Part shown: positions 1-28,841 of the stretch, in pieces | Layout: each line of letters begins with the position of its first letter | Position numbering within the stretch: the first letter of the stretch is position 1 | Source: Pleurotus djamor | Lineage: Eukaryota > Basidiomycota > Agaricomycetes > Agaricales > Pleurotaceae | Direction: 5' to 3' | Length of the DNA stretch: 64,000 nucleotides | Assembly (NCBI GenBank): GCA_029747585.1 | Contig: JAPEVF010000142.1 | Location: forward strand, 27,812-91,811 | Program-made: the position numbers and the translations under genes | Notes under the pieces: model-generated | What the model saw: the letters and a program-made list of their open reading frames with translations, nothing else | Databases searched by the model: none | What the model was told of the DNA's origin: nothing

Positions 1-135
1 CTGAGGGCGCGGCGGTCAACTTGAATGGCGGCGGTAGATTTAGTACGACGCGTCGGAGTGCTTGGTCTCCAAGTAATATACTTTTTTTGATTTTTTTTTT
101 ACTCTTCTACATACAACTTCAACCTGCGTTTGAAC

Positions 136-1912: not shown

Positions 1913-1989
1913 TTACATAATGTCACGTCGACTGTACTTATTGCAATAAATTCATTCTGCTTCTACTCCATTCGCCGCCGCTCTCCAGT

Positions 1990-3302: not shown

Positions 3303-3337
3303 ACGGTGGTATATATTCAATCTAGCAAAATAGATAC

Positions 3338-4745: not shown

Positions 4746-4878
4746 TTAGGTGTTTTATAATGATTATAGATGGTATAGAATGTGTAAGGACAGTGGGGGA
4801 TGGTAGAAATAGGACGCGACGGCAATGGCGACGCGAAAGAGAGACTAGCGCTATGGATGTCACATACGGTCACAAATA

Positions 4879-4933
4879 TCCGAACTGGGCGGCTACGCCA
4901 TCTCCGCCAACTCCGGCAACTTTGAACTGGACT
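4879..4933 (-). repeat. Right terminal inverted repeat of the Harbinger element
   Basis: Reverse complement of 1832-1886 (54/55). It ends in CTGGACT and is followed by ACC (4934-4936), the right copy of the target duplication. A second ACC follows at 4937-4939, which is host codon sequence. Confidence 0.92.
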
Positions 4934-5030
4934 ACCACCTTGTTTTCGTTCTTCAAACCCATAATCAGGACCACATCGTCAATNAAAAAAACGTTCGCGT
5001 GGTGATCCTAGTGACTCAGACTCCTCAAAT

Positions 5031-8000: not shown

Positions 8001-9366
8001 ATTGGGAGTTGGTATGATGATGCCGGTGAAGAAGCCGACTCAGATGGCTCAGACGATGAAGATGGAGATCTACGAGTTGGCATGAAGGAGTTACAGGACC
8101 TTTTAGAAGCTGATGAAGCCGATAGCCCAACCTCTCGCAGTCGAAAAACGGATGACCAAATCATGTCGCTTGTCTGTTCAAACATCGCACTCAGTGTTAA
8201 TGACTTTATCTCTGTGTAAGCATCCCCACGGGTTCCATCATCTATCCGTCAACTTTGAAGTCTCGCTGATCCAAATGAATTATAATAGACAATCTATGCC
8301 TGCGCCTGATGAAGACACGCTTGAATCGATCGTCGGGGAAGAATTCGCTCAAATCCAATCAATCTACAACCTTCCCATGGCTTCAATCTCACCAGAGCTC
8401 TCAAAGCCCCTTGGACAAGGACCTCGGGCTCTATCAGCCGGGTTTGAGGACCTCATCTCTTATCGCCGTCGTCATCAAACTCAACACGCACTGAAAGCAA
8501 CCCGTGTGCGCCCTTATGCATCCACTTCCCCATCCTCAATATTATCTCCGTCACACCAATTGGTAAGGGAGTGTTATAAGCTTATGAAGGAGGAACAGGC
8601 TCGCGGGGCAACTAGCGGGCTTGCCCGTTCACTTCGAATTGAAGGAGCCAGTGCCGAAACGGCGTCGACCAGTGGCAATGCCGCAAATGCCGCCTTAGCT
8701 GCCTCAGCTATCACTCGCAAGGTATGCTACGACTTCGGACCGTAAATAACGAAACTGAAACCCTTCCCTTCCTAGAACATGACTCAAAGATGTGGGCTAT
8801 ACACAAAAGTTGGCCTCGTCAACCCACTCTTGCGCACCGTCAAGACTGCGCGTATTTCCGCTTCTCACCCGCTTAAACTTGGAGATTTCGGGTTCGTCTA
8901 TGTTGAAGACCACGGCAAGGTTATGCTTGGGCAAGGTGTGTCTATGAGTCAATCTTCGGGAACAACTCCGATGATAACTGTGTCCTCTTTAGTTGTGGTG
9001 ATGTACATCAAAGGTGGCGGGAAACACGGTCGACATGCGTCCCACACAGAAGCAAGCGAGGTCGCTGGGGTCTCACGGTTGGGTTTTCGCGTTTACGAGC
9101 ATTTCGCCGGACAGCACTTCAGCACCATAACCGACATCACTTCGCGCTTCCTAACCCAACATTATCTATTTCTCCCATCACTCACCTTTCTCTGTCGGCT
9201 CACCAACCCACCTCAAGAGGCGCAGACACATGGTAGAGTGGAGATCTCGGCGGAAGATTGGGAGGTCTACCAGGAACTGCACGCGTCCGAAGCAAAATTG
9301 AGAAAGGTAATGGAATTGTCAAGGAAAAGGAAAAACAATGCGTGTACAGGCGAGGATGATGATTAA
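5031..9366 (+). CDS. BED-like zinc-finger and P-element/THAP9-like transposase (C-terminal half of the outer transposon protein)
   Basis: Exons 5031-6089, 6145-6398, 6457-6727, 6786-8215, 8289-8721, 8776-8935 and 8993-9366 join in frame. Two repeated units with spaced Cys/His and a shared ARWxxHLKxC ending look like BED-type fingers. A Cys cluster (PCSACRQLL) follows. The catalytic part has Asp in SLSCDDSKLL, Asp in YACDGTEVERS, an insertion-domain signature DAKHALKTFRNNL and Glu in STEACEHTFGEAR. This order recalls the DxxHxxKxxRN and ExxFG motifs of P-element/THAP9 transposases, but the assignment is inference from motifs. With the n at 4984 removed, the frame extends upstream to 4937 and, across the Harbinger insertion, into the Ulp1 half. 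A Ser/Asp-rich acidic stretch lies near residues encoded at 8020-8090. Confidence 0.75.
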
Positions 9367-9410
9367 CTACCTAGCCCGAGGCATTTTGTGCCGTTTGAAG
9401 GCCTCAATCG

Positions 9411-9637
9411 CTGAAATGGACATTTTTTATACTATCTAGAGGCCTGAGGCGCGAAATCAGACANTTTTTGGTGTTATTAGAGGCCTGATCCGCGAAATCA
9501 GACATTTTTGGAGGCCCGAAGGGCCTCCTCCGAAAATCAGACATTTCCCCTCAATCTGGCGGCAGGCCTACACAAAAACAGACATTTTGGCCGAAATGCC
9601 TTCAGACAAATTCTGGGATCTGACATCAGGCATTTTC
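9411..9637. repeat. Cluster of about six copies of a short CGAAATCAGACATTTT-like motif
   Basis: Related copies start near 9411, 9451, 9492, 9530, 9571 and 9620, spaced about 40 bp apart. Some are preceded by AGAGGCCTGA. Such arrays are typical of subterminal transposase-binding sites at the ends of large DNA transposons. They lie just after the stop of the outer element's gene and about 125 bp before the next host gene. One copy contains an n (9464). Confidence 0.6.
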
Positions 9638-9763
9638 TACCATTGTCCGGGGTCCTGACCGAGCCTCCCTGGCCATTGAAGGAACGAATTGATAACCTCG
9701 TGGCCATAACGTCATCGTTCCAGCTATATAGGCGCCGGTGAGCCTCGTCGCGTCCGCGCCCTG

Positions 9764-12014
9764 ATGAATGTCTTGATACGCTCAGCAACTCGTCGCTCCT
9801 TCTTCACCCGCATCCCCCTCCATCGTTCAGGACACATACGCTTCAAAAGGGCCGCACTATGGCTTGTCCCTGCTGCAGGCGGACTCGCCCTGTTTATCTC
9901 TTCCAGGCCATCCAAGCCCCAGGATGTCTTTGCATCCCCTGCCATGCTTCCGTGTCGAGAAAACATCGTCCCAACCATCCTCTCGCCCGCAGAACCAGAT
10001 AAGCACGTCGCACGCAGGCTGCTCGACCTCCTGAGGTCCTACATCTTGGAACCAGTCTTGACCGCAAAACGCTTCATCTACCTCTTCTTCCTATTCGCAC
10101 CTGTCATCATTGCAAGCCCAATGCTGCTCGTAGGGAAGCCAAGGAAGCGGCTCCATGGCGACCGGTGGGGGGCTGTCTGGTGGTATGGCTTTCTCGTCCG
10201 CAGAATGGAAGCAGCCGGGCCCACCTTTATCAAACTCGCTCAGTGGGCCGGCTCTCGAACAGACTTGTTCCCTTCTCTTCTCTGCATTCGCCTCGGAACC
10301 CTCCACTCCCAAGCGAAGCCTCACGATCTCCAATATACCAAACAGGTCATCGAAACTGTCTTTCAAAGACCCTTTGATGACGTCTTTGAAGAGTTTGACG
10401 CAACCCCGATTGGTACAGGTGCAATCGCCCAGGTTAGTATCCCTCAACTTTAATCTGCTTTTCTGATCGATGTATCAACTTTACTAGGTATATCGAGCTA
10501 CGCTGAAGAAAGACCTCATTCCACCATCGTATCTTGGTCCACGCCGCCAACGCCGCAGCAAGAATCCAGCCGCTGCGGCTATTGCACCCGCCATTCTCCA
10601 TGATCTTCCTCCGTCGGTACCCACGGCTGCTGTCGCGATTAAAGTCCTTCATCCCAAAGTCGAAAAGACCATAGCAAGGGACTTGCGCATCATGTCCTTC
10701 TTTGCACATTTCATCACTCTATTCCCCGGGATGCAGTGGTTATCTCTGCCGGAAGAAGTGGAAGTTTTTGGCGCGATGATGTTTCAGCAACTGGATCTAA
10801 GACATGAAGCAGAGAACTTGGTTGCCTTTGAAAACCATTTCGCCCCGCGCAAGGTGCCTATTGGTTTTCCTAGACCATTACAAGTCTGGTCTACGAAAGA
10901 GTTGCTTGTAGAAGAGTTCGAGAATGCCCTCCCCCTCGAAGTCTTTCTGAAGAACGGCGGCGGTCCATTCAACGAGCAGATTGCAACCGTCGGCTTGGAC
11001 GCTTTCCTAGTACGTATCATATACCCACCCAACTCAAAGTTACTTTGCTCACAACAAATTTTTAGAATATGCTTCTCCTAGATAACTTTGTTCACTCCGA
11101 CCTCCACCCAGGGAACATCCTTATCAAGTTCTCGAAGCCTCCCTCTACACAAGCTCTCCTAAAGAACCTCGTATCCTCCATCTTCAACTCCAACAAACCC
11201 CCAGTTCCTATCGATCCATCGGCATCCCCAGAACCCATCCCGGCCAATCCCAATCCGACATCAGACCTCTCTGACTCCGACGAAATAGTATCAAAGTTAC
11301 GATCAGTGATTTCCTCCCCGCCCGAATGGAGGAAAGAGCTCGAATCCGTGTACGAAAACGGATACATCCCCGAGATCGTGTTCATCGATGCGGGTCTTGT
11401 TACGACATTGGACGCGAAAAATCGAACGAATTTTCTGGATTTGTTTCGTGCGATAGCCGAGTTTGACGGGTACCGCGCCGGGCATCTTATGGTTCAACGC
11501 TGTCGTACGCCGGAGTTGGCTATTGATACGGAGACGTTTGCGTTGAAGATGCAGCACGTTGTTCTTTCTGTGAAGCGGAAAACGTTTTCGTTGGGGAAGA
11601 TCAAGATTTCTGATATTCTGAGGGATGTGTTGAAGGCGGTGAGGGAGCATCATGTTAAGATGGAGGGGGATTTTGTGAATACGGTTATTTCGATATTGTT
11701 GCTTGAGGGGATTGGGAGGCAGTTGGATCCGGAGTTGGATTTGTTTAAGAGTGCGTTGCCGATGTTGAGGCGGCTGGGAGGCCAGATGGCGATGAGTGAT
11801 GCGGGGAAGAGTGCGAAGGATCTTCCGAAGAGTGATTTGGGGGCGTTTTTGAAGGTGTGGGTTTGGCTGGAGGCGAGGGAGTTTATTTCGGCTTCGATTG
11901 TGAATGCGGATGAGATGATAAAATATGATTGGTGAGTCCCTTTCTTCATCTGAATCGATGTGCAGGCTTTTGATGAAGTTATTTTGTCATTGTAGGTTGG
12001 CTCCGAACTTCTGA
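9764..12014 (+). CDS. ABC1/ADCK-family atypical kinase, mitochondrial (ADCK2/Cqd1-like)
   Basis: Four exons (9764-10432, 10488-11009, 11066-11931, 11996-12014) encode about 691 residues. The N-terminus is Arg-rich and fits a mitochondrial presequence, followed by hydrophobic segments near residues 30-45 and 103-123. Hallmarks of the ABC1/UbiB family are visible: KLAQ near residue 157 (the KxGQ-like motif), an AIAQ loop in place of the Gly-rich loop, the VAIK lysine, HSDLHPGN in the catalytic loop and FIDAGL as the metal-binding aspartate motif. The wording TFIKLAQWAGSRTDLFP is closest to ADCK2/yeast Cqd1 as I remember it. Relatives influence coenzyme Q and lipid distribution in mitochondria. 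The gene starts only about 125 bp after the transposon's subterminal repeats. Confidence 0.85.
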
Positions 12015-12607
12015 GAGCACCATCAAGTATGCCTGGACACGGTGTACCGCTCGACTGGCCTCGTATACGCTACGTCTCGATTTCCACAACCAAACCTGCA
12101 GCATAATCGGTTCTAGAGTAGACACGGACATATTCATAGATTAGTAGACTATGTATGTATCAACGCAAATAATGAACGACTCCCTTCTCTGGCCTCTTCT
12201 GGGATCTGAAGCGAAAGTCCAAGCACAGTCTCATCTACCTGCAGCTGGTCGTCGTTGGGCATGTCACGGTCACGAGACTGTGATCATTCGTGCTGCGTAC
12301 TGCGACGTGTAGCTTGGTAAATACAAGCTATTACATATGTAATGTACGCGACGCGGCGATTGCGTTCGCGGCACCCTCACCAAATTCGGATGGACTTTAT
12401 GGGGAGTACTTGGTTATCTTGCGATCGAAGAGTCAAATTAAATGAAGAGAGCAAAGGGGAGAAACTAGGAAAGGGTAGATACATAAGCAGATAATAAGAC
12501 AGAGGAAAGTAAAGCACATGAGAGACACAACATCAGAAATTGGTCAACCCGTCGCAGAGCCGGATGCAGATGAGCTTTTGGAGCTCCAAACCCATTATAT
12601 GTTGGCA
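12015..12607. other. Intergenic region with a short palindromic repeat
   Basis: Lies between the convergent kinase gene and F-box-like gene. Apart from the repeat at 12257-12292 I see no open reading frame or RNA gene. It probably holds the 3' untranslated regions of both genes. Confidence 0.6.
12257..12292 (+). repeat. Copy A of a 36-38 bp repeat containing a palindrome
   Basis: Matches 14277-14314 in the same orientation, with two substitutions and a 2-nt gap. It contains TCACGGTC-ACGA-GACTGTGA, an 8-bp inverted repeat with one mismatch. The two copies flank the F-box-like gene. Confidence 0.7.
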
Positions 12608-13870
12608 TTACCCTTCACGGTTGCGCGTATACATATTATGATCGACTTTGACTGTATTCACGGATGGAAGCTGGGTGAAAACCATGTCGGCAAACTCACT
12701 GCCCGCAGAAACTCCAGCTAGAGTCGGTTGGCGATCCGGGAGGAGAAACCGATCCCGGCTTTGTACCTCCAGCCATTGAAAGTTTCCAAAGTGGCTTAAC
12801 CACTTTGAGAGACTCACATAGCTTTCACGTCCGACTCCGGACCATTGCCTCGAGCGCAGCTCCAAGATGAAGCCCGCTATGGGGACGGAGGGCGTGGGGA
12901 AAGGCAGTAGGTCATCATGCCGAAGGGAATCCAAGATGAACTTGATCTTTACTGTTAAGTCCTCGAGTCGGCAAGGTAAACGGCCAAGCCATGTAGAGAC
13001 GTCTCGCCACCGATCAGGGAACGCGCAATCGGAACGGTGGCAGGTAATTTCCAAGTCAGATGGATGTGACTTGGTGCCGATAAACTGTTCATCAAAAAAC
13101 ATGACGATGAATATGATGGGGGCGTGAAGCGACTGCAGACACGGTAGAAAATCGGGTGCGCGGAAAGCCTGGAAAGGTTCCCAAACCGTGAAATCATGAA
13201 CATGTAGAAGGGTTATTGCGGGGTGTCGTCGAAGAAATTTGAGGAGCATGTAGGGCGATCTCATGGCCTTGTAAATGTGTAGTTCCTTTAACGAGGGAAG
13301 GAGTAACTCCAAACCAAAGGTACTCCATTCGTTAGAGTGCCACCCACAGTATCTAAGTTCCAACGCTCTGATGGAACTGAAGTAAGATAGACATGGCATG
13401 ATGGAAGGCGAGGATAGATCAGGGGGAGGGCCTGTTTTGTTCAATTGCAGATGCATCAATGACAAACGTGTACGCTCATGGTGACGCCACCCAGAAATTG
13501 ATACCTCAGAGGGTAGTTTCCTGGCCAGCGTCTGGAGGGTGCGTTGATAGGGAATAGGAAGATGGGCAACGGGCCGACCTCGATCGAAGAACTGGCAAAC
13601 GAGACGTCGAACTGTGGTGACACACTTGGAGAGGCCGATTACAACTAGCATCGACCTTGTCAGAGGAGATACGAGGTTAAATCTGAGCTCGTCCAGGGTT
13701 CCTGCGTCATCATCGAGGAATTTGAGGCCACATCTATGAAGAAACCCCGGCGAAAGGTAGTCAAGAATCTTGCGTGAAGCTAAACACAGATTGAAATGTG
13801 CTCGCAGGTCAAGCTCGTTTGTGATGTGGGCGAATAGATCCAAGTCGAGTTCGTATAATTTACTTTCCAT
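12608..13870 (-). CDS. F-box/LRR-like hypothetical protein
   Basis: A single coding exon of about 420 residues starting MESKLYELDLDLFAHITNEL. The N-terminus resembles an F-box helix bundle, and the body has leucine-rich stretches (SIRALELRYCGW, LPSLKELHIYKAM) reminiscent of irregular leucine-rich repeats. Agaricomycetes carry large families of such proteins, presumed SCF ubiquitin-ligase adaptors, but no specific substrate can be inferred. An in-frame ATG at 13888 is rejected because the sequence between GTATGT (from 13930) and TTCTAG (to 13875) looks like a 56-nt intron in the 5' leader, with a TACTAAAT branch site. Translation therefore most likely starts at 13870. Confidence 0.65.
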   Translation of the reverse strand: MESKLYELDLDLFAHITNELDLRAHFNLCLASRKILDYLSPGFLHRCGLKFLDDDAGTLDELRFNLVSPLTRSMLVVIGLSKCVTTVRRLVCQFFDRGRPVAHLPIPYQRTLQTLARKLPSEVSISGWRHHERTRLSLMHLQLNKTGPPPDLSSPSIMPCLSYFSSIRALELRYCGWHSNEWSTFGLELLLPSLKELHIYKAMRSPYMLLKFLRRHPAITLLHVHDFTVWEPFQAFRAPDFLPCLQSLHAPIIFIVMFFDEQFIGTKSHPSDLEITCHRSDCAFPDRWRDVSTWLGRLPCRLEDLTVKIKFILDSLRHDDLLPFPTPSVPIAGFILELRSRQWSGVGRESYVSLSKWLSHFGNFQWLEVQSRDRFLLPDRQPTLAGVSAGSEFADMVFTQLPSVNTVKVDHNMYTRNREG

Positions 13871-13874
13871 TGGC

Positions 13875-13930
13875 CTAGAAGTAGGCATTTAGTATATGCT
13901 TCGACTGGACAGAGATTGAGTGTTACATAC
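13875..13930 (-). other. Probable 5'-leader intron of the F-box-like gene
   Basis: On the minus strand it begins GTATGTAACA and ends TACTTCTAG, with the branch-like TACTAAAT about 17 nt before the end. The upstream exon has no ATG, so it would be non-coding. Confidence 0.55.
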
Positions 13931-14394
13931 GAACGACACTGAGGTGGTCGCGATCAGAGTCTCTGAGCGATCCTTTAGTCACTTATATCCATAGTACACC
14001 CGGGGAATTAGGGCGGCACAAGTGAGTCCTTGAATGTCATAGCGACTGCCGAGAAGTGGTGAGAGCCCTTGGGAGCCTTTTGGAGTTCACATCAGAGGAT
14101 GACTCCAGGCTGAGAATAAGTAGTACTTTGTCAAATTGATTGCACTGGGAATGGGGGAAGAGGATGAGATGTGGTAGCACGGGCAGCTAAGCCGCGGCAT
14201 GCGCATGGCAAACTTTCCAATGGATTGACTTCGGGAACAAGTTCGAAGGGATACTCTGATTGAGAGCAAATTGAGAGGGCATCCGTCACAGTCACGAGAC
14301 TGTGATCGTTCGTGACTTTAATAACGCGTTCTCGACCCTTGTGGCGTCCGTCCACCTCGCCTTTCTCTTTCAGCCGAGTCACTTCAACGCCAAT
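13931..14394. promoter_or_regulatory. Divergent intergenic region between the F-box-like and BTB genes
   Basis: About 460 bp upstream of both gene starts. It holds repeat copy B (14277-14314), about 80 bp upstream of the BTB start codon. No other feature is recognised. Confidence 0.5.
14277..14314 (+). repeat. Copy B of the repeat, with a perfect 8+8 palindrome
   Basis: Contains TCACAGTC-ACGA-GACTGTGA at 14286-14305, a perfect inverted repeat with a 4-nt centre. It sits in the promoter of the BTB gene and matches 12257-12292, so it could be a protein-binding site. Confidence 0.7.
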
Positions 14395-15483
14395 ATGTCG
14401 CCCTCAAACTCGCCTCGATCGTCTCTCGAGGAGCCCAAATCCAAACGACGGAGGATGGGTCCAACCCGTTGCGATGGCTGTAGCGACGACCCACGCTGTC
14501 CGAGCCACCACGCCCGTGTTGAAAAACATCCGTTCTGGTTCAACGACGGCGATGTGATATTCCAGGTTGAAGATGCTCGGTTTAAGATACACCGGGATAA
14601 GCTACAGTGTTCTTTGGTGCTTTGGGATATGTTTGAGCTTCCTCAGCCTCCAGACGCTGAGAATATTGATGGGTGTCCTTTGGTCGCTATGGCTGGGGAT
14701 AGTATGAAAGACTGGATGGCCGTGTTGAAGTGGATGTATGACCCTCAGTAAGTGGCACTTACACACGAGGTGGAAATGCCGACTGAACTCGGGGGTTTAG
14801 AGGCTTCTCTGCGCAAGTGGCGGTATTTGATGTCATTGCAGGCGTGCTACGGATAGCTAGCAAGTATGAGATGCCCGCGTTGCGGCAGGCAGCTATACGT
14901 GAGCTGCAGCTTTGTTGGCCAGTTGACCTGGCGAATATGACATTCAATGCATTTTCAAATGCATCAGGTAAGCCATCCAACCTCGTATCTCGTTCCGAGT
15001 GGCTCAATGTCAAATGCAATCATAATAGAGGCTATACAACTCGCTCGTGAATGCGACGTCCCTTCAATCCTCCCAGCCGCATTCTACGCACTCTCCGTCC
15101 AACGTTGGAGCTGTTCTGCCGACGGCGGGCGTTCTCATACCATCCTCTCGCCGCACGATCTTCGTCGTTTGATCGTCGGACGCGAACGTCTGCAAGATAT
15201 CTACCTTCAGCTTACTTTGGACCCCTTGTCGACGCCTAGTCGTCCCCCCATCTGTCAGCAGTGCAAACCGTTATTGGAGAATCACTGGCGTCAGAAACTC
15301 CGACCTGACTATACTTCCCCTCGTTCGTGTTGGCTGCTTAAGGTGCTCAAGGACATGTTGGATAGCGACGATGGTGCTTCTCATACCCAGCTATGCTCAC
15401 TATGCGTAACCACGCATCGTTCTATGATCGGGCAACGGCTAGTATGGCTCTTGAACGAGATACCACAAGTCTTTGCGCTTTAA
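14395..15483 (+). CDS. BTB/POZ-domain protein
   Basis: Three exons (14395-14747, 14801-14967, 15029-15483) with consistent phases. The first exon ends the BTB core: FWFNDGDVIFQVEDARFKIH is the typical opening strand-helix of fungal BTB proteins, followed by the 'KLQCSLVLWDMFELP' helix. The second exon (DVIAGVLRIASKYEMPALRQ) matches the helix that follows the BTB fold. The rest has Cys pairs (ICQQCKPLL, QLCSLCVTTH) of unknown use. This is a large agaricomycete family, and the function is unknown beyond likely protein-protein interaction. The in-frame ATG at 14395 is the first real one. Confidence 0.8.
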
Positions 15484-15745
15484 ACCTTCCATGGGCCAAT
15501 CTCGAAGTCATAACTATGAAACCACACAAACATTTGTCGTTATCCTAAACTATTTAATGTGTAGAGTATGTCCCAACGATGTTCATGTTTATTTTTACGT
15601 GCAATAAGCTGAAGCCGAGCGGGTGGCTTCAACAGAGCAGTCGCGGGACTGGGGCGTGATCCTCTCTCCAACCAGAGATCCATTAAATTATGTACATAGC
15701 AGTTGCGAAAATCGAACGAAGCAAGGGAGAGAGAAGGGGGGTGCT

Positions 15746-17053
15746 TTATTTGGTGGTATCACCCAAATCGACCTCAGCGGGCGCCTTGTCCGAAGATTTC
15801 GAACCAGAAGCTTCTCGCCCAAGCGGGGGTGGACTCGACCTTCCTGCACCTGGATTGGGAGAAGGCGCGGGTGATGCAGAGTTGGCGAGTCTTTGGTCCA
15901 AGGCTTTGAGAGCCATGGCCCTATATGTCATTGTAAGTGTCCAAGTCAGAACGGAATGACAATGACAAGATGAGCTTACCTTCGCCTTTCTGCTTCCGCC
16001 CGAGCACTTCCGGGAACTTGAGTGTAAATTCCAGATTCGACGTCACCTTGGGTCGTGGGGATCAGGTGGAGACGATTAGCGAGTGAATAGACGGTGTTGC
16101 CCAATAGCGAGATGGGATAACTAGGTGGATGTGAGTATTGAGTAAAATGGCATAAGTGGGTCGAAGAACTTACTGGGCGAACGGAGGGAACCAAGAAAGA
16201 AGAGAAAACGTCTCACTACGGTCTCCGTAGGTCACCATTCCACCAACCACATCCGAAGTGTTTTTCTTGTAGAAACGAAGGTATATCCAGCCAACAAACC
16301 AGCCAAATTGGATGATGATCCAAGGACATTGGAAGCCAACAAGGCACAAGACCGTTGAAAGACCGAGGTATGCCATTGGTAGGCTCTGTACTCCACGTCA
16401 GTGAGATGAACCCAGGAACTGCGGATGTGGGCGCACCTTTACGCGAGTTTTGAGGACTCCCATGACTTGAACTTGATGTTCGGGTATAAGTTGTGTAAAA
16501 GCGACCATAATGCCAATTTGCAAGGACATTTGGCCTCGGTATTGCATTCCATAACTACATTGATTATGAGCTGGATTCTCATTCTCGCCCGAAAAGAGGA
16601 TAACCACTTACAGGAACATGTCAGCATTTCTCGTAGCAATAAACTCTATCCAGTTGAACCCAAAAGCGATAATGTTGGAAAAGGTGACTGTGACAACGAT
16701 GAATTTGATAGTCTCTATACTGCCCCAAAGGCGCTCGAGGTAGCGTAATGATGGTGGAACAAAGATGATAGTGGCAATGAACTGTGCTCGTCGGGTCAGC
16801 TCGATGTGTCATCGCAATCATGGCGGAAAAGACGCACCTCGAATACGTTCGTCTCGACGAAGGCGGATGTGAATAGCGTCCAAGGGTATAAGAAACTGAG
16901 TCCGGGAATCAACGTCAAGTAGGGCGTTGCACCGACGCCGACGAAACGCAGCCAGGCGTAGAGTGCGGACAGAGCGACTGTAGCCGCGGTGAAACCACGC
17001 GTCACGGGTGGAGTCGAGGAAATGATTTGTAGCGGGGAGCTGAGGATTGCCAT
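15746..17053 (-). CDS. TMEM115/DUF1751-family Golgi membrane protein
   Basis: Starts at 17053 and ends at 15746 with about six exons. The N-terminal part has the rhomboid-like arrangement typical of the family (LRFVGVGATPYLTLIPGLSF, YPWTLFTSAFVETNVFE), then further membrane helices (TIKFIVVTVTFSNIIAFGFN, VLCLVGFQCPWIIIQFGWFV) and the conserved FYKKNTSDVVGG with YGDRSETFSLLSWFPP. The tail is hydrophilic and Pro/Ser-rich. Human TMEM115 and its homologues act in the Golgi, affecting retrograde traffic. The family match is by recall and the cellular role is inference. It is divergent from the FAM32A-like gene with 182 bp between starts. Confidence 0.8.
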
Positions 17054-17235
17054 GACCCAGAGAGTTCAGCGCGCAGAGTCCGTGGCTGAGTCGACGTCGA
17101 AGAGGCCTCGTAAGATTTCAGGCTCGGAGATTTTTGTTGGCAGCGAGAGAGATGGAGGCGGCAAAAGCGGCGTGACAACACTAAGCGAACGCGTGACCCC
17201 TGTGACGTCTTCAGCCGTTTGGTCTCAACCATCTC
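17054..17235. promoter_or_regulatory. Bidirectional promoter between TMEM115-like and FAM32A-like genes
   Basis: 182 bp separate the two divergent start codons, so their promoters must overlap. Confidence 0.6.
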
Positions 17236-17792
17236 ATGTCCGATTATGACTTTCGTCCCGGAGGCTCACTCAAGCTCAAGGGAGGCGTTGCGGAGGGCGG
17301 TATCGTGAAAAAGTACGCACTAGCTTATATTTTGCTTGGGCCTCGTTTTCTGACCTCCCCACAGGAAGAAAAAGTCGAAATCAAAGTCGAAGGAGAAACA
17401 GTCTACTCCTCCGGCAGATGCAGAACGCGCCCGTGTAAAGGAGATGCTGTTCAAGGAGGACAAGGACTCCCAATCTCCTTCAGGCAGCGGTCGAAACTCA
17501 CCTGCAGTATCAGGCAGTAACGGCCGCAAAACCAAAGCGGAGGAACGCTTTGAAGAGGTTCAGAAACGCAGAGTACGTTCCCTCATCTGCCTCGCTCGCA
17601 CCTTTACTAAGATTCTGCGCTAGCTTGCGGAACGTGTCGCCAAAATGGCCCACAAAACCCACAAGGATCGTGTCAACGAGTTCAACTCCCATCTCGAGTC
17701 CCTCAGCGAGCACCACGACATCCCGAAGGTATGCCTACCCGTGCTATCTCGCTTAGCATTCTCTTACACCCCTGTAGGTGGGCCCTGGTTGA
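17236..17792 (+). CDS. FAM32A-like (DUF1754) small basic protein
   Basis: Four exons (17236-17312, 17365-17572, 17624-17728, 17778-17792) give 134 residues. It has the family layout: an N-terminal GGSLKLKGG segment, a Lys-rich run (KKKKSKSKSKEK), a variable Ser-rich middle, and the strongly conserved end with THKDRVNEFNSHLESLSEHH followed by DIPKVGPG. The last five codons, stop included, sit on their own 15-nt exon. FAM32A is found in late human spliceosomes and influences 3' splice-site use. A like role here is inferred from the family. Confidence 0.85.
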
Positions 17793-18089
17793 GATTTGCC
17801 GCGTACCCAATTGTTCAGTTCGTTGTCGGGTCGCTTCCTGGATTGTTTCACCTTATCCGTGTCTCTGGATGTCTTCGAGCTTTATACATCCATGATGTTT
17901 GGACTCCGTGGACTGTCCACCGTACTAGTCTCACTGTAAATTACATTGCATGAATCAAAAGTGTTATTGTAACATATTTGGCCCACTAGTATGAAAATGT
18001 CCGAAAACGTGACCGATATAGAACGAAACTTGCTTCTTCCCTTCATCCTCCTCACCGCCTCGTCGTGTCCTGCACCTGCCACAGCGACG

Positions 18090-20240
18090 ATGGCTGCTGC
18101 ACGTATAGACAAGAAGCCACACATATGTCCGCCATCTACTGCAACACATCCATCCGACCGATGGGAAACCATGTTTGTCTACTCCTTTATAACAAAGTTC
18201 ACCAATCTACGAGGCAAAGTCGAAGGCTTGGATACACCCATGGAGTCAGCCTGTTTTTTGTCTCTCCTGGATGCCACTCTAATCGTTCTTCGACGTGTCC
18301 GTGGCGCTATAGCTTAGAAACTGCCTTACTCTCTCCTGAGGCTAGCCCCATCCTGGTCGATGTGCTCAGTCGCTTCATCCGCAATCTGAGACCACAGACG
18401 CGTAATCTCAAGTGAGCACACGTCTATGCAATCTGTTCCCCCTACGCCAATTTCTAAATAACGTCATTCATGTTCAGCACCGATCAAATATCTTCGACTG
18501 TTGCCACTGTCATGCTCGAGTACTTAAAGGGCTCCGAGAGGTCTGTGTTCTGGGACGATACTATCAAGGCCAACCTGGACCCGTTCCATGGTGTGCAAGG
18601 CGGCNTTTTTTGGTGGTGATTGGGATTTCAAGGTCCTTCTCCCTGGTTCCAAACTTTAAATCTCCCCTCATGCCTATCCTATCCCTTCCAGCTCAAGATC
18701 CTGCGACAGCTCGTTGAGCTGCAGTTGTGCCACAGTCCAGATATCAAGGCCACTATCGACGGCGCGTGGGGAGTGGTCCACAACAAACACAAGAAAAAGG
18801 ATACTGGAGGCCATGCCGACTCTGATACCAAGACCCAAGAATCGCTCCAACTCCTTCCTATAGGTCAAGACTTGCAACGAAAACGTTTCTGGGTTGCTGA
18901 TGGTCTGTGCATTTCTTTTGCTCCATCGGCCAGTATTTGCGTGTATTTGCCTGGGGAGACGAAATCATCATATCATATCTTCGTCTCCGCGCCTTCGGCC
19001 TACTCCGTCCGGCCTAAGCTTCTGTCAAAGTCCGTAACCACTCACTCACGGTTCCTTATGTTCTTTTATAGATTCTCCACGCGTCTACACGTCCACGAAC
19101 CCATGGAAGATTACTGCAACGTTCCAGACAGTGACGTCCACTCTTGAGGAGTATACGGCACTCATTGATGAACTGAAAGCAATGGGCCCACCAGAGCTTA
19201 AGAAAGGTGAACGGAGAACAAAACTCGAACAGAATCACCTTGCCCTGGTCGCTTCACTTGAGGGACGTATTCCGACAATCGAAGCTGAACTTGCTGTAAG
19301 TGGCTGATTTTGCTGCGTTGATATCGATCGGTGCTAACGTCTTCATCCGTCGATTTTTCCACCGTTGGTATAATTTGGCCCGCCTCGCAGAGGATACAAA
19401 GGGTCCGACGTCGAATCGAAAACAAAAGGACATCCACCATGCTCGCAGAACTGCGAGAAACGAGGACAAGGCGCCAGACTAGAAAGCCAGACTATGTGTA
19501 TACCAATGAAAACGCTAGCGACGTTAGTTCGACCGCTTTTTCTCCTCACACCCAGCCGCTGACTCGGATTTAGGACGATGCCGACGAGTACGTCGATCAA
19601 GGCGATGAAAATTACGACGAAGAGTTCGACGAGGACGATTTTCTCAATTTTCGGTCCGACGCACCGAATGCTTCAGGCTCCCGTCGTGGCTCTGGCTCTA
19701 CAGCGAAGCGGCGTTCGACAAGGAATGCGAATNAAAAACGCGAATGGAAAACGCGAGGCCTCTTCGGATGCTTGGGAATGGCGTGGTGAAAGACGCTCCA
19801 CCAGACGGCTTGGTGGTGATACCAGCGCCTCTGACCCAGAACCTCCCTATAAGCGTGCGAGAACTGAAGACAGCATGGTTAGCGCAAATTCGGTTGGCGA
19901 TGCCTCATCGACATCCGCTATCTCACATGGTGATGGCACCTCTCTCAAGGTGAAGACAACCGGTGCTGCAGCCGTCAAGCCGACCGAAGTCGCGCTGGAG
20001 CAGTTCGCTGGCCGGAAAAAGAGCAAATTCTGGTATTACGCCGTCGAACCAGTCACACCTTCTCAGCCGCCAGCTGTTGACCCCGGCGGTGTCAAAGCTG
20101 TTAACGGTAATTCCAACGGGTACCGAAATGGCCACGGTGCGATCAATGGGAATGGTCGCGCACAGTCACCTCCTCCGACAGATATTGAGGATGGCAGTAA
20201 ATCCGTCAGCTCTGAGAGCGTGGTTGCGCCGGTATCGTAG
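18090..20240 (+). CDS. DDT/WHIM-type chromatin-remodelling-associated protein
   Basis: About seven exons. The first encodes a DDT-like block (SDRWETMFVYSFITKFTNLR), the middle a WHIM-like block (LKILRQLVELQLCHSPDIKA, then LLPIGQDLQRKRFWVADDSP) and the rest an acidic stretch and an Arg-rich segment (LRETRTRRQTRKPDYVYTNE) ending in a low-complexity tail. Proteins of this layout join ISWI-type remodellers such as Rsf1/Ioc subunits. The exact orthologue is not settled. Single n's at 18605 and 19733 break the frame, and deleting each restores it (GGFFGGDWDFK; NANKNANGKREASS). ATG 18090 is preferred over 17991 because the intervening codons look like a pyrimidine-rich leader. Confidence 0.65.
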
Positions 20241-20546: not shown

Positions 20547-23071
20547 ATGTTGACGAGGCCAGCTCAAAATGCTCTGCTCAAGTCCATCCAGCCACTATTT
20601 CGCTTCAGAGGATGCTTGCTGGCGAAGTCAACTTCAACCCGACGACGAGACATCTCGACTTCATCCCGGAAGCTAGCTCACCCGACAACCGTACCTATCC
20701 CTCCGTCCGTCGATGACCATGCTCTCGTGGCCCTCTTGGATCAACCCTCGTCGTCCGGGCTCGTCTCGAGACTGTTTCAGACCCAAGGGGGACTATTTGG
20801 CCACAAAGAACTCCAGCAACCTAGCGGCTTTATCACTCTTGCAGAAGCCACTCTCGTCCGGGCTCAGATTCTCACTAATCGAATCTTACGCGCTCGAGAG
20901 TCACAAGATGAGCTGAGGAAGGTTGTCAAGAATCTTGATAGACTCAGCGACATGCTCTGCGGAGTGATAGACCTGGCCGAGCTGGTGCGCAATGCACATC
21001 CGGACCGTGCTTGGGTCGAAGCTGCGAATCAAGCTTATGAGACATTATGCGAGTTCATGAATGTACTGAATACTGATGTTGGCCTCTACGATGTATGTAG
21101 TAACTTGCAATATCATCTTCGACGATGTCTTACATGGTTCATTCGCTTCCAGGTTCTCAAAGCTGTGTTGTCTGACTCAACCATTGTCCAAGCAATGGGA
21201 CCCGAAGAATATAGTACAGCGCAGATATTCTGGCACGACTTCGAGAAATCTGCGATCAACCTGCCGCCGGAACAGCGCCAACGATTTGTTTCTCTCTCTT
21301 CGGAAATTCTCGTTCTGGGCCGAGAGTTTCTACAAGAAGCAAACACTGCGCGACCTCCGGCTTCTATCCATGCTTCTGAATTGGCTGGCCTTAAGGACAA
21401 GGGCATGGGTGCCAGACTGCAACTTCAGGCTCAATTTACGCAGAAGGATCTACTCGTATATCCAGGTTCTTTGCAGGCTCAAATGATAATGCGTTGTGCA
21501 CCGGCCGAAGAGCCTAGACGAAAACTATACATCGCGGCCAACTCCAGCACACCCTCCCAAATAGAACTCTTAGAACGTCTGCTACGCACGCGAGCCGAGC
21601 TTGCACGACTTGTTGGCAAAGAAAGCTTTGCCCACATGACGCTTTCCGACAAAATGGCCAAGTCTCCTGGTAAGATCATGGCAACTCAGCATTCTGTTCC
21701 CGACTAATACTGTCGCCACAGAAAACGTCCAATATTTCCTCGATGCATTAATGGACTATACCCGACCATACGCCCGAAAGGCTTTGCGCACATTAAGCAT
21801 GCGCAAGCAAGCCCATCTACAAACACCGCCCTTCCCAACTATCCAAGCCTGGGATCGTGACTTCTATTGCCCGCCTGAACCTCCAGCTCCGCCCGTACCA
21901 CTGCCTCCTCTTACTCTCGGTACCGTGTTTGCTGGTCTATCCAGGCTATTTTATCACCTCTACGGTATTTCCCTCCGACCAGCAGAATGCGCACCAGGAG
22001 AAGTATGGCATCCCCATGTCCATAAACTTGAGGTCGTAGACGAAGATGCAGGCGTAATAGGTTGGATCTACGCCGACTTGTTTGCACGGAGAGGAAAGCC
22101 AAGTGGCGCTGCCCACTACACCGTACGATGTTCTCGTCGAACAGATGACGACGATGAAGCTGAGGATGGGTCAATCCCTGCTGCCGAACCATATGTCCGT
22201 GTATCACAGTCGTTTGAATCTTCCAAACGTCACCGTGTTCGCGGTCAAGACGGAGAGTTCCAACTTCCGCTTGTCGTTCTCGTGTGCGAGTTTGCACGGC
22301 CTTCCGTCTCCAGTGGACCCACTCTCCTGGATTGGCACGAAGTCATAACCCTCTTCCATGAGATGGGTCATGCCATGCATTGTGAGTAAATTTCTCGCAT
22401 CCAGTCACCGCTACGCTTACCACCGTCATCGGCTAGCTATGATCGGTCGAACTGAGTATCAAAACGTATCCGGTACTCGTTGTGCAACGGACTTCGTAGA
22501 ACTTCCTTCAATCCTTATGGAGCATTTCCTCAGTTCACCGACTGTCCTCTCCCTCTTCGACGTTTCTTCGAGTACACCTTCGTCAGCATGGCAAGTCGGA
22601 AATCATCACCAAGACCCTTGCCATTCCATTGACACCCACTCGCAAATCCTCCTCGCCGCCATGGATCAAGTATATCATTCACCATCGGTAGTCGACCCTT
22701 CGTTCTCATCTACTTCTGCTCTTGAGGCTTTACACAAGTCCAAGGGACTCATACCATACGTACCGGGCACTTCGTTCCAGACCCAATTCGGACACTTATT
22801 TGGATACGGCGCAACATACTATTCCTATCTTTTCGACAGAGCTATCGCCTCTCGAGTGTGGAGCCAAGTCTTCCATGCTGACCCCCTCAACCGGGAGCTG
22901 GGTGACAAATACAAGAGAGAGGTGCTCAGGTTTGGTGGCGGACGAGACCCATGGAAGATGGTCAGTCACCTCCTTGACTCGCCTGAGTTGGAGAACGGCG
23001 ACGCAGATGCAATGAAGGAAGTGGGTCAGTGGCGAATAGAAGACGAAGTGGGTCAACCTGGAAGACATTGA
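20547..23071 (+). CDS. mip: Mitochondrial intermediate peptidase (MIP/OCT1)
   Basis: Four exons (20547-21092, 21153-21669, 21722-22381, 22437-23071) give about 785 residues, the usual size. The N-terminus is rich in Arg/Ser without acids, as expected for import into the matrix. The M3 metallopeptidase zinc motif HEMGH is at about residues 567-571, and splicing of the last intron continues it as [20 protein letters not shown], a strongly conserved run. The enzyme removes an octapeptide from imported precursors after the first processing cut. In Agaricomycetes this gene is the classic neighbour of the homeodomain mating-type genes, and here HD1 follows 277 bp away, convergent. The first intron is a multiple of three and open in frame, so retention would add 20 residues. 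Confidence 0.93.
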
Positions 23072-23348
23072 CGACGGTTCGCATCAGTCGGTATCCGTTG
23101 TCCTCCTGAATCATACATCTCATATGCTACGACGACCATATTATAAGAATAAGAATACATTTGACATTTGCGGGCCTACGGCTATTCCATAACAAGTAGA
23201 TATAACAACGATAACAAGTGAGCATGGAGAGCAAGAAAACATGAAAGCAAAGGGAATAACAATATGTGTATGTGAAACGACGGAAAAAATGATGATGGGT
23301 ATGCGCATGACTAACAAGATGACGGGGCCGAGAGTTCGATGCGATGGA

Positions 23349-25490
23349 TCATGGCTGCACGAGTTCGGCTTCTATTTGCTTGGCTTGAGTGATCAATGAG
23401 TGCAATCTGGTCAACTTCGCTGCTCGTTGCGCCGGGGTTATGGAGATCGGTTTGGTGACAATGGCACTACATGGGTTCTCTATATTGAGGGCGCAAGCGT
23501 CGCCAACAACTGCAGCTGGAGCGAGAGTTTTTGGGAAGATGGAAAGCCAACCAATTGACTTGACGGAGTCGTGTTGGGGAGAGAGTTTCGAAGCAACCTC
23601 GCTCGGAAGCGATGTAAGGGAAGAAAACTCGTCCAAAATGGGTAAAGTTGCCGAGGGCGTTCGCATTGGGAGTGCCTCGCAGGGCGAGAAGTCAGTCGCT
23701 GACTGTTGCAGGTCCACTAAAATAGTCATGATAGTTGAATAGGACAGATCACTTTGAAGAGGGACGACGCACATGGATGAGAGATATTGCTTGTCCACGC
23801 TGTCGTCGGCATGTAATGCGACGCAAACGGGTTGCTAGGTTCGTCGTGCCACACCTGGTCCAGTAGATCCGGTTGTGATAAGGGACTACAAGATAAAGGG
23901 TCTGAAACTTGGATAAGACTAAACCCCTAGGAAAGGAGGACAGCATACATACCTTTTGGAAGTAATCCCTCTAAGGTAATATCATCGGGATAGAATACCG
24001 GGGCCATTTCTGGAGCGCATGAAATCTCTGGAGCGTGGAAGGAGGATAAATTCAATTCGCCCAGGACTGCTGATTCTGGGGTATCAAAGAAGATCGATGA
24101 CCAGTCATTTATCTTTAGATCAGGTGGGCCCTCGAAGAGTGGTGATGGCCCCGCGGAGGATGGCGAGGATGAAGGTGTCGAGTAGGACGTTGCAGTGTGG
24201 ATTGTATTAGGTAAAGGGTCAGACACCAGCTGCAGTCTCGGACGAATGTGCATGCTGTGTCCGGAGGTGGGCTCCGTGAATGTGACCGAGCCATGGTGAT
24301 TTCTGAAGAAGTCATCGTAAGAAGGAAGCGAGGGAGTCCTCGGTTCAGATAGAGAAGGGGTACTGGCCCGGCTTGAAGCGGTTGAGAACAGGGAGGAGGT
24401 CGAGGAAGATATTGAACTGTATGAGCTTGAAGCAGACAAGACTCTGCATGGTTTCAAGTGAGTTCCAACAGAAAAAAAGGAAAGCGACGCCCACTGACCT
24501 TGACCGCTTTCTGGGCTCAAAGAGTGCCGTAGCAGGATCATCGTCGTCGTTGTCACTGTCGGGGGTCCGTCGTTTGCCCGTGACGCGGACGCCGGCAACA
24601 ACTGGCGAGGGTGGGTGTGTTGAGGGTGCATGTGTTGAAGCTGCGGAGGATGACTCCGACGCACTACCCACATCACTGGCACTCCCTTCTTGCCCCTCCT
24701 CTCCAACTGGATTCAACACAACTTTGGCGCGAGCTTTGCCCCTACGCTTGCGTTGTTTATCCTTGCTCGTCATGTCTTTAACGAGGGCATCCAGTTTTCC
24801 CGCGAGAGCACTCTTGATGAACTTGTCGGAGTACAAGTCTCTTGCTGTGGCTTCCATTTGCACAAAAGCCAACGTAATGTTCGCCGGAAGTGGTTCGCCT
24901 GGCTGAGCAGCAAGTCGGTGTCCGTCTTCTGAGAGAGCACGAGTCGCTGCAGCGACAGTGGCCGCTTTAGATCCAGCGAAGTAGCTCTTGGATATCGTTG
25001 TCCAACCGATTCTACGCCGTATGTTGAGGAACCAAGTGTCGATGTGATGGGTGGATGTCGATGTTTCACGAGCGATGATAGTCCTCTGCCTTTTGGAAGG
25101 ATATGGGTTGTGGATATTATCAAGCAGCCACTTATACGCAGTGGCAATGTATGGGGGATGGGCTGTAGATCCGAGCTCCGAATGAGACGGTGGTGGTGGC
25201 TGAGGTGTTTCGTCTTCCAAGTGCAGTTGTTCGAAAAGGCATTGAAGATCTGTGGTAAGACTAGCCTCAATCTGTGCTCGTTCTACAGAGAAGTCAAGGA
25301 TGTGTGCAGCAAGCCGTTGGATGCGACCAGCAGTAACATAGGCCAGACTGGACAGCGTATCATCCAAAGGATGAGAGGTTAGATCGTCCAAGACGTGGTT
25401 CCAGGACTGCTCAAAAACCTCCAGAGAGGACGAGCCTTCCACAACGGACTTGATGAATTCGGTTTCTGCTTCGTCAAGGTTGACAGCCAT
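23349..25490 (-). CDS. HD1: HD1 homeodomain mating-type transcription factor
   Basis: Starts at 25490. An N-terminal helical region of about 100 residues, used in this class for choosing partners, precedes an atypical homeodomain at roughly 111-165 with WFLNIRRRIGW as the recognition helix. A basic, NLS-like run (KDKQRKRRGKARAK, about 243-256) and Ser/Pro-rich regions follow. Exon 1 ends after PRKRS and joins an exon starting VLSASSSYSS. The last intron is best read as 23717-23952, because only that acceptor keeps phase, leading to a C-terminal exon ending QAKQIEAELVQP at 23349. At 236 nt it is long for this genome, so a missed exon is possible. HD1 dimerises with HD2 of a different mating type to switch on dikaryon growth. 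Confidence 0.9.
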
Positions 25491-25676
25491 TACTGTGTAG
25501 CGCGGGTGGGTGCGAGGGATTAGTTAGGGCGAAGCTGAGACTGGGCGTGGGGCTAAATGGTGAACTGCGTGTGAAGCGAGGACAATGGGGTCTCGGCAAC
25601 TCCCGTCCATTGTTCGTTTGCTATACTTGACGCTCGCCACCCCACTCAAGGGCACACCTCAACAACCCGAAGACCC
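25491..25676. promoter_or_regulatory. Shared HD1/HD2 divergent promoter
   Basis: 186 bp separate the two start codons. Divergent HD1/HD2 pairs with a short common promoter are the standard unit of basidiomycete HD loci. A TATA-like GCTATACTTGA lies near 25620. I found no clear GATGN9ACA-type operator in it. Confidence 0.7.
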
Positions 25677-27592
25677 ATGGCCAACGTCAAGCACGAACGT
25701 ATCAGGAGCGTCCTCTTGCAAATCGTGGAATCCAGTCGTTCATTGCAAACCAAAACGACGAAAGACGATTCAATTCCCGTCAGGTTGAATGCTGAACACA
25801 ACCCTTCGCGCCCACCCTCCCTCAATTTTCCACCTCTCCATGATTTTTCACTTGAACTTGGGTCGATGGGCGTCATTGAGCCTATCTCAAAGAAGGTCGC
25901 AGATGCTTTCCGCTCGAGATGCAACCAATTGCAAGCCCTTGTCAACGACCGGTTGTGCGAAATGCAGCACCGGTGTTCCCCCTCCGTCCAACCGCTACTG
26001 CGTTCATACCTGCAGAACTTCTACAACGAAAACGTTGACGAATTCAAAGCCGAACTGCTCCGATCCATCGAACAACATCGTAGCAAGTTCACTGTCGCAC
26101 ACAACAAGTCAGCCAACAAACCTCTATTCAATTCGGTATCAGTGTTCCCCTGTCCGTTGACATCCAACAAACTCAAATTTCCTCTAGGATTTCGTGCCAT
26201 TTCTGGAGAAATATTTCGAATTCAATGCTTACCCCTCCGCTGCCGATCGCATTCTTATGGCCAAGAAATCTATGATGACTCCACGGCAGATCGAAGTTTG
26301 GGTATGTCTTACAGTGTTCTCTCAATACCGTAATGCCCCCTCACAGCTGTGGCGCTAGTTTCAAAATCACCGCAATCGTGCACGAAAGGAGGGGAAATGT
26401 CTGCCTCGTCTCCACCCTTCGGACAAGCTGCCAGATCTCGGCTTAGCAGGTCTAGAAGAGAGCATGTCTGATTTCATCAAATCTGAACCGGAGAAATCGA
26501 ACTCGGACGGGTCTGATTCAGAGGATACAGAGCCCCGCAACCAAGGAGAGGAACTCGTAAGTTGTCTCTCAGTCACCCTACGCACACCTTTTTGATGGGC
26601 TTACACAGCACATTAAGAAGGCAACAGTACTCCCTAACGCGCTCGAGCCCTTGTCATCTACCCATGCGTTTCCTTCCGCTTACCTGGCGCCCCCAATCCC
26701 TTTCTCTCGGATGACCATCGAAGAATGCATCCCTGTTTTCTCTGGTGCGCCTTTACCATGGCTACGCTCACCATCGAGCCCAACTCCCACTCCGTCCAAA
26801 CATCGCCTTTTGACGAAATCCCAGATCAGTGAGCTGTCTGACCTCTTTGCACGTCTCACCGTGCGCGAGGGTTCCAGAAAAGTGATGCGAAGGAAGGCGA
26901 CCCCGCCCCCAACGAAACCAAGCTGTGGCTCGTCCCATGCTGCTGCATGTGCGACCACCACAGTCCTGCATAAAGGCCGACATCCTTCATTTGTTTCCAC
27001 CCCCACCCCCCCTTCCTCCTCGGTATTCTCATCGTTCCTTGTCACGGACCGATTATCTTCCGGCCAGAACCTTCATCCACTTTCGACCGGGCTACCAGAC
27101 ACAGCGCCGCCTCCCAACAGCCGTAGGCGTAGAAAGTCGCCACAACTACCTAGGCGCGTTCCCGGCTCGACGCCAAGTTCACACACCCGCGTTCAGCAAA
27201 TGCACCATCCGTATGCCTCCCCTTCGCGCGCTTCCTCTTCATCTTCTTGCCGCACGCCTTCATCAAGTAGCGAATCATTGAGCACGCCCCGTACTCCCGA
27301 CAACTCCAATGCCCCACTACCATCTTCAACGTCAGCCACCAAGCCAATATCGTTACCATCATATGATCGCTCTCCGTGGACCAGCTACTTCAATCTTCCT
27401 CANTTNGAGAGCCCTAGTCCNAGTCCNTTCCAATCGAACCCAAGTTGGTTCCCTCAGGATCTATTTCTTCACAANCCCNTTTGGNGTTTCCGCNCTNTGC
27501 TGACANTTGTCTTACCTTCTTCGCATTGTTCTGCTGTTTTGCTTTGTCGCATTTGTTCCTTCGTGTTTTCCGTGTTTATTGCTACAAGTTAA
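25677..27592 (+). CDS. HD2: HD2 homeodomain mating-type transcription factor
   Basis: Starts MANVKHERIRSVLL at 25677. Exon 1 ends at 26135, and two further short introns are spliced within and after the homeodomain, the second cutting right after the Trp of WFQNHRNRAR. The homeodomain spans about residues 145-205 and is of the typical (non-TALE) class that defines HD2. A long Ser/Pro/Thr-rich C-terminus follows. Ten n bases at 27403-27506 blur the end. Read literally, the frame is open to 27592, but a one-base slip between 27476 and 27478 would end it at 27503. The protein is the obligate partner of HD1 from the other mate. Confidence 0.9.
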
Positions 27593-27745
27593 CTAATTTA
27601 TCTGTTGTATTTACATACCAAAGTCTCTGTATACCACTGTACTACGCGAATAGATCGAAACAAAGATTGGAATTTGGAAACTCCCAAAATACCGATGCTC
27701 GATGATTCTCGCTGCCGTTGGATGAGAGACAGTGCGAGTGGCAAG

Positions 27746-28841
27746 TTACTTGGCGAACTTCGATGCCTTGAATGGCTCGTTAGCCCAGTCCATGTGGGAC
27801 GCGATCAATGCGATACACTCACCAAGCTCATCAACTGACCAAGACCACCCGAGTCGCTGCCTCCAGTGGTACTTCCGCCCATCTTGGATTGCACCATCAA
27901 CTTCATGACAGTCATGGCAGCGCCATTAACAGCGTCTTGTTTGTCTCCTGAAGCAGCACCGCCGGATTTGTCGAACAGTTTGGTGGCTTCGGCCATGGCG
28001 AGACTGATGAGCTTCGTCATACCTCCGGCGTCATCTTTGGGTGCGGATTTGTCTGAGGAGCTTCCTCCAGTGAATTGCTTAAGAACCTAACGATCATCGT
28101 GAGTTCGCGTCCGACATTGAACTTCTTGACGATGTGACTTACTTGCATCGCAGCAGCACTACCGAGTAGGTTAGCACTCAGGCCACCAGGTGAGTTCTCC
28201 TCGTAAGCCTTCTTGTGGGCTTTCTGGACATCATCTTCATCGAGTGGCTTTGTTTGATCTTCCTGTGGTGCGCGGGGGAAGTTAGCGATGTCATCAAGTC
28301 ATCAAGTCATCGCGATCGGATTGTTCACCTTGTTGTTGTTGAGGAAGCTCAAGGCTGATGAGAACAGCGAGCTCTCTCCGGAACCATGTTGGTTGGCGGT
28401 CTTGACGACTTCGTCATCGTTGACTGTGTGGGTACCAGCAGGGGTTAGTAGTGACCAGAAAGTCAGGGCAAGGCTTGGATACTGACATGACGGTGCGCCG
28501 TAGCTGCCTCCGTATCCTCCACTGCCACCTTGTCCGTAATTTCCACTGCCGTAGTTGTAGCCGCCTGAACCTCCTTGAGGAGGTTGGTTGTTCGGTGAGT
28601 TGAACTCAGCACCACCAGTCTTGGAAACATCGGCTGTGAAAGCAATCAGAGGATAAGCGACCAGGAAGATTAATGCCGATCATGAATTGATCATGAAAGC
28701 TCTTACGTTGAGAGTCGCTCTTCTGTGAATCAGTGTAGGCGTCCAAGCCCTTCTTAGCGAGGTTCATGAATGTATCCTAGAGATCGAGAAGGCTTTGAGA
28801 TCCCAGGAAACTTGAGAAAGCTGAGAGAAAGAGCGCACCAT
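27746..28841 (-). CDS. beta-fg: Beta-flanking gene product (A-locus flanking protein)
   Basis: Seven exons on the minus strand. The first coding exon is only the ATG (28839-28841), followed by DTFMNLAKKGLDAYTDSQKS, a Gly/Tyr/Ser/Gln-rich stretch (GGYNYGSGNYGQGGSGGYGG), then conserved helical parts (DEVVKTANQHGSGESSLFSS, EDDVQKAHKKAYEENSPGG, GGMTKLISLAMAEATKLFDK) and a last exon coding ASKFAK. This gene was named for its place beside the beta-type A mating genes in Coprinopsis and borders the A locus in many Agaricomycetes. Its molecular function is unknown to me. It converges on HD2, 153 bp away. Confidence 0.85.

Follow-up and report, generated by a model that had tools for sequence, protein, structure and literature searches.

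A single-pair A (HD) mating-type locus of Pleurotus djamor and its probable second allele in the same assembly

Gene content and layout of the locus

The window, a stretch of 64,000 nucleotides, corresponds to positions 27812-91811 of contig C464, in an assembly that totals 55.86 Mb over 1413 contigs. Between positions 20547 and 28841 it carries the genes mip, HD1, HD2 and beta-fg (the beta-flanking gene), in this order. Both the order and the identities of the four genes had been proposed in an earlier, sequence-only reading, and they were borne out by our gene models and by Pfam matches (counted above the curated cut-offs) and homologues; the bounds coincide exactly with the start codons of our models of mip (20547) and beta-fg (28841). 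Splice sites were picked by eye, without transcripts, those of HD1 and HD2 being compared between the two alleles described below, of which allele A is that of the window.

The mip gene, encoding a mitochondrial intermediate peptidase, extends from 20547 to 23071 on the forward strand in four exons (20547-21092, 21153-21669, 21722-22381 and 22437-23071; 785 aa). Peptidase_M3 was matched over three pieces of it (8.9e-10, 1.7e-46 and 2.1e-45), and its HEMGH sequence is what we take to be the zinc motif. HD1 lies on the reverse strand (23349..25490), with four exons (25490-24499, 24443-23953, 23901-23773 and 23716-23349) and 659 aa, and bears a Homeobox_KN domain (3.2e-13; a KN/TALE-like homeodomain, WFxNxR) as well as the C-terminal domain Mating_C (1.3e-13). 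HD2, on the forward strand (25677..27503), also has four exons (25677-26135, 26188-26301, 26359-26556 and 26609 to about 27503) and contains a typical Homeodomain (1.4e-13). The motifs noted earlier, WFLNIRRR for an atypical homeodomain and WFQNHRNR for a typical one, are present in HD1 (from aa 153) and in HD2, respectively, the second intron of HD2 lying directly after the W of its motif. Pfam homeodomains were found in both proteins, and the lack of any homeodomain match, named beforehand as an outcome contrary to the reading, did not occur. The two genes are divergent, starting at 25490 (reverse) and 25677 (forward), and are separated, as first described, by a common upstream region of 186 bp (25491..25676), which is 196 bp long in allele B.

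The 3' end of HD2 is uncertain owing to Ns. Read literally, the frame in the window extends to 27592, and the frame of contig C1311, described below, would place the stop of allele A near 27503. The stretch 27403..27506 holds 10 of the 20 Ns of the window and resembles a consensus in which two alleles have been merged, so that the last codons of HD2 are unreliable in the window.

Seven exons (242 aa) were modelled for beta-fg (27746..28841, reverse strand), and DUF7721 was matched in two of three pieces of it (5.7e-12 and 1.4e-6). With regard to its last acceptor, the NCBI exon 27766-27746 is likelier than 27775-27746, because the end of the NCBI protein (...LASKFAK) matches the Coprinopsis homologue. 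Among the 120 listed of 290 homologues of beta-fg, at least 15 are named 'beta-flanking protein', including those of Coprinopsis cinerea and Coprinellus disseminatus, and four are named 'Chitinase 2'. HD1, HD2 and beta-fg have their best matches in the P. djamor proteins ONZ45_g6530, g6531 and g6532 of NCBI, with identities of 97-100%, the match of HD2 covering 82% of the query, and the homologues of HD1 and HD2 include proteins of this species that are named HD1/HD2 mating-type proteins. The NCBI models differ from ours in size (638 aa for HD1, 452 aa for HD2 and 239 aa for beta-fg); ONZ45_g6530 is without a short stretch that is kept in our 659-aa model, and the 452-aa model of HD2 could mislead users.

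A second, divergent version of the locus

A comparison of the DNA of the locus with its own genome rendered matches on contig C1311, of 83% on the mip side and 80% on the HD2 side, and on contig C529, of 94% on the beta-fg side. As in the window, C1311 has the order mip, HD1 (complete, 651 aa) and HD2; over 15.5 kb (its positions 259-15751) it is collinear with the window, and a further match follows past a single element insertion. C1311 represents a second, very different version of the locus (allele B), probably coming from the partner nucleus. The HD2 frame of allele B breaks near aa 365-400, at a run of C (about C1311:17600-17660) near which allele B carries an extra base relative to allele A, and this break may be an assembly error or a true truncation. 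The homeodomain reading frames are open in both alleles.

The insertion in the left flank, absent from C1311, measures 9,855 bp (C464:27613-37467; window 1-9656) and has 15-bp terminal inverted repeats and an 8-bp target-site duplication. Its 15-bp end has one further exact copy in the assembly, on C753. Inside it, at 1832-4933 of the window, a DDE_Tnp_4 domain lies between 55-bp inverted repeats (98%), and a smaller transposon therefore seems to be nested in the larger one. Ten ORFs were scanned, nine of them in the insertion; DDE_Tnp_4 was the sole find, and the other eight of the insertion gave no Pfam match at 0.001.

The identity between the alleles was followed in bins of 500 bp, with gaps left out. 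It amounts to 93.0-99.6% in the 22 bins of the left flank (starting from 9500 to 20000), to 90.4-95.8% in the five bins that span most of mip, and to 84.3% in the bin between the end of mip and the 3' end of HD1. Through HD1 it is 75.1%, 75.7%, 65.9% and 60.9%; the bin with the promoter and the start of HD2 is the most divergent of all (51.0%), and values of 68.8%, 74.3% and 82.8% follow through HD2. In the right flank, from 27500 on, where the comparison is with C529, identity is 89.7-100%. At the protein level HD1 of the two alleles is 65.4% identical overall, with 52 identical residues out of 109 (47.7%) in the N-termini (aa 1-109) and 43 out of 56 (76.8%) in the homeodomain. The corresponding values for HD2 are 35.4% in the N-terminus and 89.3% in the homeodomain.

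Between alleles, pS and pN are 0.556 and 0.202 for HD1, 0.558 and 0.238 for HD2 (with allele B cut at aa 365), 0.265 and 0.008 for mip, and 0.143 and 0.004 for beta-fg, and pS ranges from 0.003 to 0.338 over 13 exons or ORFs. The pS of mip climbs towards HD1 (0.144, 0.308 and 0.338 in exons 1, 3 and 4), but an exon of a distant flanking ABC1-kinase gene, with 0.263, is nearly as divergent as mip, so that the gradient is not clean and elevated pS also occurs away from the HD side. A slightly raised dS of MIP1 has been ascribed to linkage in the available text of PMC8970355. The alleles are strongly divergent, and near-identical alleles, the other outcome that had been named as contrary to the reading, did not occur. 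Divergence is highest around the promoter and the N-termini and declines towards mip and the flanking regions, as expected of a locus under balancing selection.

The 3' end of HD2 and contig C529

At the 10 Ns of the cluster at 27403-27506, C1311 and C529 differ in base at eight and in length at one, and both are without a base at the remaining one. Left of the cluster the window is identical to C529 in 81 of 81 positions and to C1311 in 57 of 81, and right of it to C1311 in 111 of 111 and to C529 in 107 of 111. The window contig seems therefore to pass, within the 3' end of HD2, from haplotype A on the left to haplotype B on the right. The simplest reading would be that the assembler merged both nuclei at this stretch and left it on the other haplotype, in which case HD1 and HD2 of the window would go with the beta-fg side of C529, and beta-fg of the window with the HD allele of C1311. 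A true recombinant chromosome, accompanied by a third nuclear haplotype, could also account for the complete matches on the two sides (81/81 and 111/111), but it is very unlikely, since nine of the 10 Ns stand at differences between C1311 and C529 (eight of base, one of length), as in a merged consensus, and C529 is itself a probable misjoin at the same place. Immediately past HD2 the contig probably combines sequence from two nuclei, and phasing its beta-fg with the HD allele of the window could mislead.

Left of about position 85688, C529 (compared from 50001 on) had no match in the window. The gene cut at this point seems to run on upstream in the allelic contig C504, where a TIMELESS domain (7.5e-39) lies in the part that C529 lacks; the ORFs on either side of the joint would belong to one gene. 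At the joint, 19 bp are common to both sources. The possibilities that C529 is a third haplotype or reflects a genuine rearrangement were rejected on account of the gene cut at the joint and the 19-bp overlap, which point to a probable misjoin at about 85688. If the junction were real, the end of HD2 together with the beta-fg side would have been translocated, in one nucleus, beside a truncated Timeless-domain gene, with the 19-bp word at the break, and the mating locus would be split by translocation; this we regard as highly improbable.

A second small cluster, with five Ns, was observed at 60516-60849 of the window, where it overlaps an ORF with a PB1 domain and the bin compared with C529 is 92.5% identical. 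It is perhaps another collapsed stretch.

Number of HD pairs, mate recognition and known systems

The genome searches score the best candidates only, in a fragmented assembly, and the following counts of matches are lower bounds. With HD1 as the query, C464 and C1311 were each hit three times and C158 once (E 0.085), and the Pfam search found Homeobox_KN in at least three places and Homeodomain in at least 13. In these Pfam searches no contig besides C464 and C1311 had two separate homeodomain genes. Among the candidates for a second pair that were rejected, C652 has both Pfam families matching one and the same domain, no HD2 partner being found, and C641/C1315, C566, C113, C205/C559 and C361/C685 have one Homeodomain match each. 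The single pair that had been claimed for the window holds beyond it, within the assembly, no second pair having been found by the HD1 and Pfam homeodomain searches; one HD1/HD2 pair is present on each of two haplotype contigs.

Three other homeodomain genes lie on contig pairs that are 94.6-99.1% alike in the parts compared, which implies that the assembly holds two haplotypes elsewhere too. This bears on the possibility that C1311 is a duplicated second HD sublocus of one haploid genome rather than an allele. The occurrence of both pairs in one assembly would fit such a duplication, which is nevertheless barely credible given that C1311 has its own copy of mip, that its collinearity with the window extends over 15.5 kb, and that two haplotypes are seen for those three genes. 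A homeodomain pair without a role in mating, or a mating locus in decay, to which the frame break in HD2 of allele B and the Ns in that of allele A could be ascribed, can practically be dismissed in view of the same-species homologues named as mating-type proteins, the open homeodomain frames of both alleles, and the conservation of homeodomains in otherwise hyperdivergent alleles.

Linkage to the pheromone receptor locus (a fused bipolar MAT) was also rejected: none of the at least 41 listed genome matches of STE3 is on C464, C1311 or C529, all of them being on other contigs. Over 1951 bp the STE3 contigs C498 and C788 agree at only 82%, which suggests, from sequence likeness, that the receptor locus (B, P/R) may be heteroallelic too, these contigs being perhaps its alleles. 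Two other pairs of STE3 loci (L038/L052 and L041/L047) gave no match by DNA comparison.

Taken as a whole, the locus is almost certainly the Pleurotus djamor A mating-type locus (HD, matA) in the canonical form with a single pair. The two proteins of the pair, HD1 and HD2, are transcription factors of the homeodomain type. At the matA locus of mushrooms, HD1 pairs with the HD2 of the partner nucleus only if their N-terminal regions come from different alleles, and the heterodimer then switches on dikaryon development. By analogy, HD1 of allele A would pair with HD2 of allele B, and the reverse, so that mate recognition at this locus would proceed by HD1-HD2 pairing; the sequenced mycelium would have been a dikaryon. 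Dimerisation through the N-terminus is described in the available text of PMC10739230. Our results confirm a textbook locus and add to it two further allele sequences with their flanks, from one assembly, which are useful for breeding markers.

Alleles A and B of HD1 are 63-64% identical to the deposited P. djamor protein Q68SR9, 60-62% to Q68SS8, and 37-39% to three HD1 proteins of P. eryngii; HD2 is 51-60% identical, over aa 1-380, to the deposited P. djamor proteins Q68SR8 and Q68SS9. A tree of HD2 was made with 21 rows, namely the two alleles found here (allele B as 365 aa) and 19 proteins picked from 115 matches, four outgroup rows being flagged by the program for their long branches. All four P. 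djamor alleles group in one clade (support 100/100), within which A is sister to B (96/94). For HD2 of P. djamor, set against the other species sampled in these 21 rows, the trans-specific polymorphism proposed for testing in the sequence-only reading was hence not found. Among the other Pleurotus, allele pairs across species were found for eryngii/tuoliensis, eryngii/pulmonarius and eryngii/ostreatus.

The A mating-type locus of P. djamor, with the genes PDa1 and PDa2, was reportedly described by James, Liou and Vilgalys in 2004 (Fungal Genet Biol 41:813). That locus is from the same species and has the same pair of genes, an HD1 and an HD2, but the alleles found here differ from both deposited alleles that were found. 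The locus was already known, since the available text of PMC10739230 describes for P. djamor a matA made up of a single HD1 gene and a single HD2 gene (PDa1, PDa2); the same text also cites 58 matA alleles for the species. The available part of PMC3564976 cites the 2004 study and the conserved order of mip and bfg, and P. djamor HD or receptor sequences are used, according to the parts available, in PMC3140503 and PMC5100862. The matA locus of P. ostreatus, which sits between MIP and beta-FG and occurs in single-pair and duplicated forms (PMC13108863, available text), is alike in its mip and beta-FG borders, in having HD1 and HD2 with a common intergenic region, and in being multiallelic (PMC13108863 and PMC10739230, as far as their available text goes). 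In the same texts, the P. ostreatus strain PC9 has a single pair and PC15 extra HD genes, whereas here an HD1/HD2 duplication was seen in neither haplotype. The only P. ostreatus HD2 compared, P0022, is 37% like the HD2 found here. In Coprinopsis cinerea, HD1/HD2 pairs lie between mip and beta-fg, in alpha and beta subloci. That A locus has several HD pairs, according to the available text of PMC10739230, whereas the one found here has a single pair.
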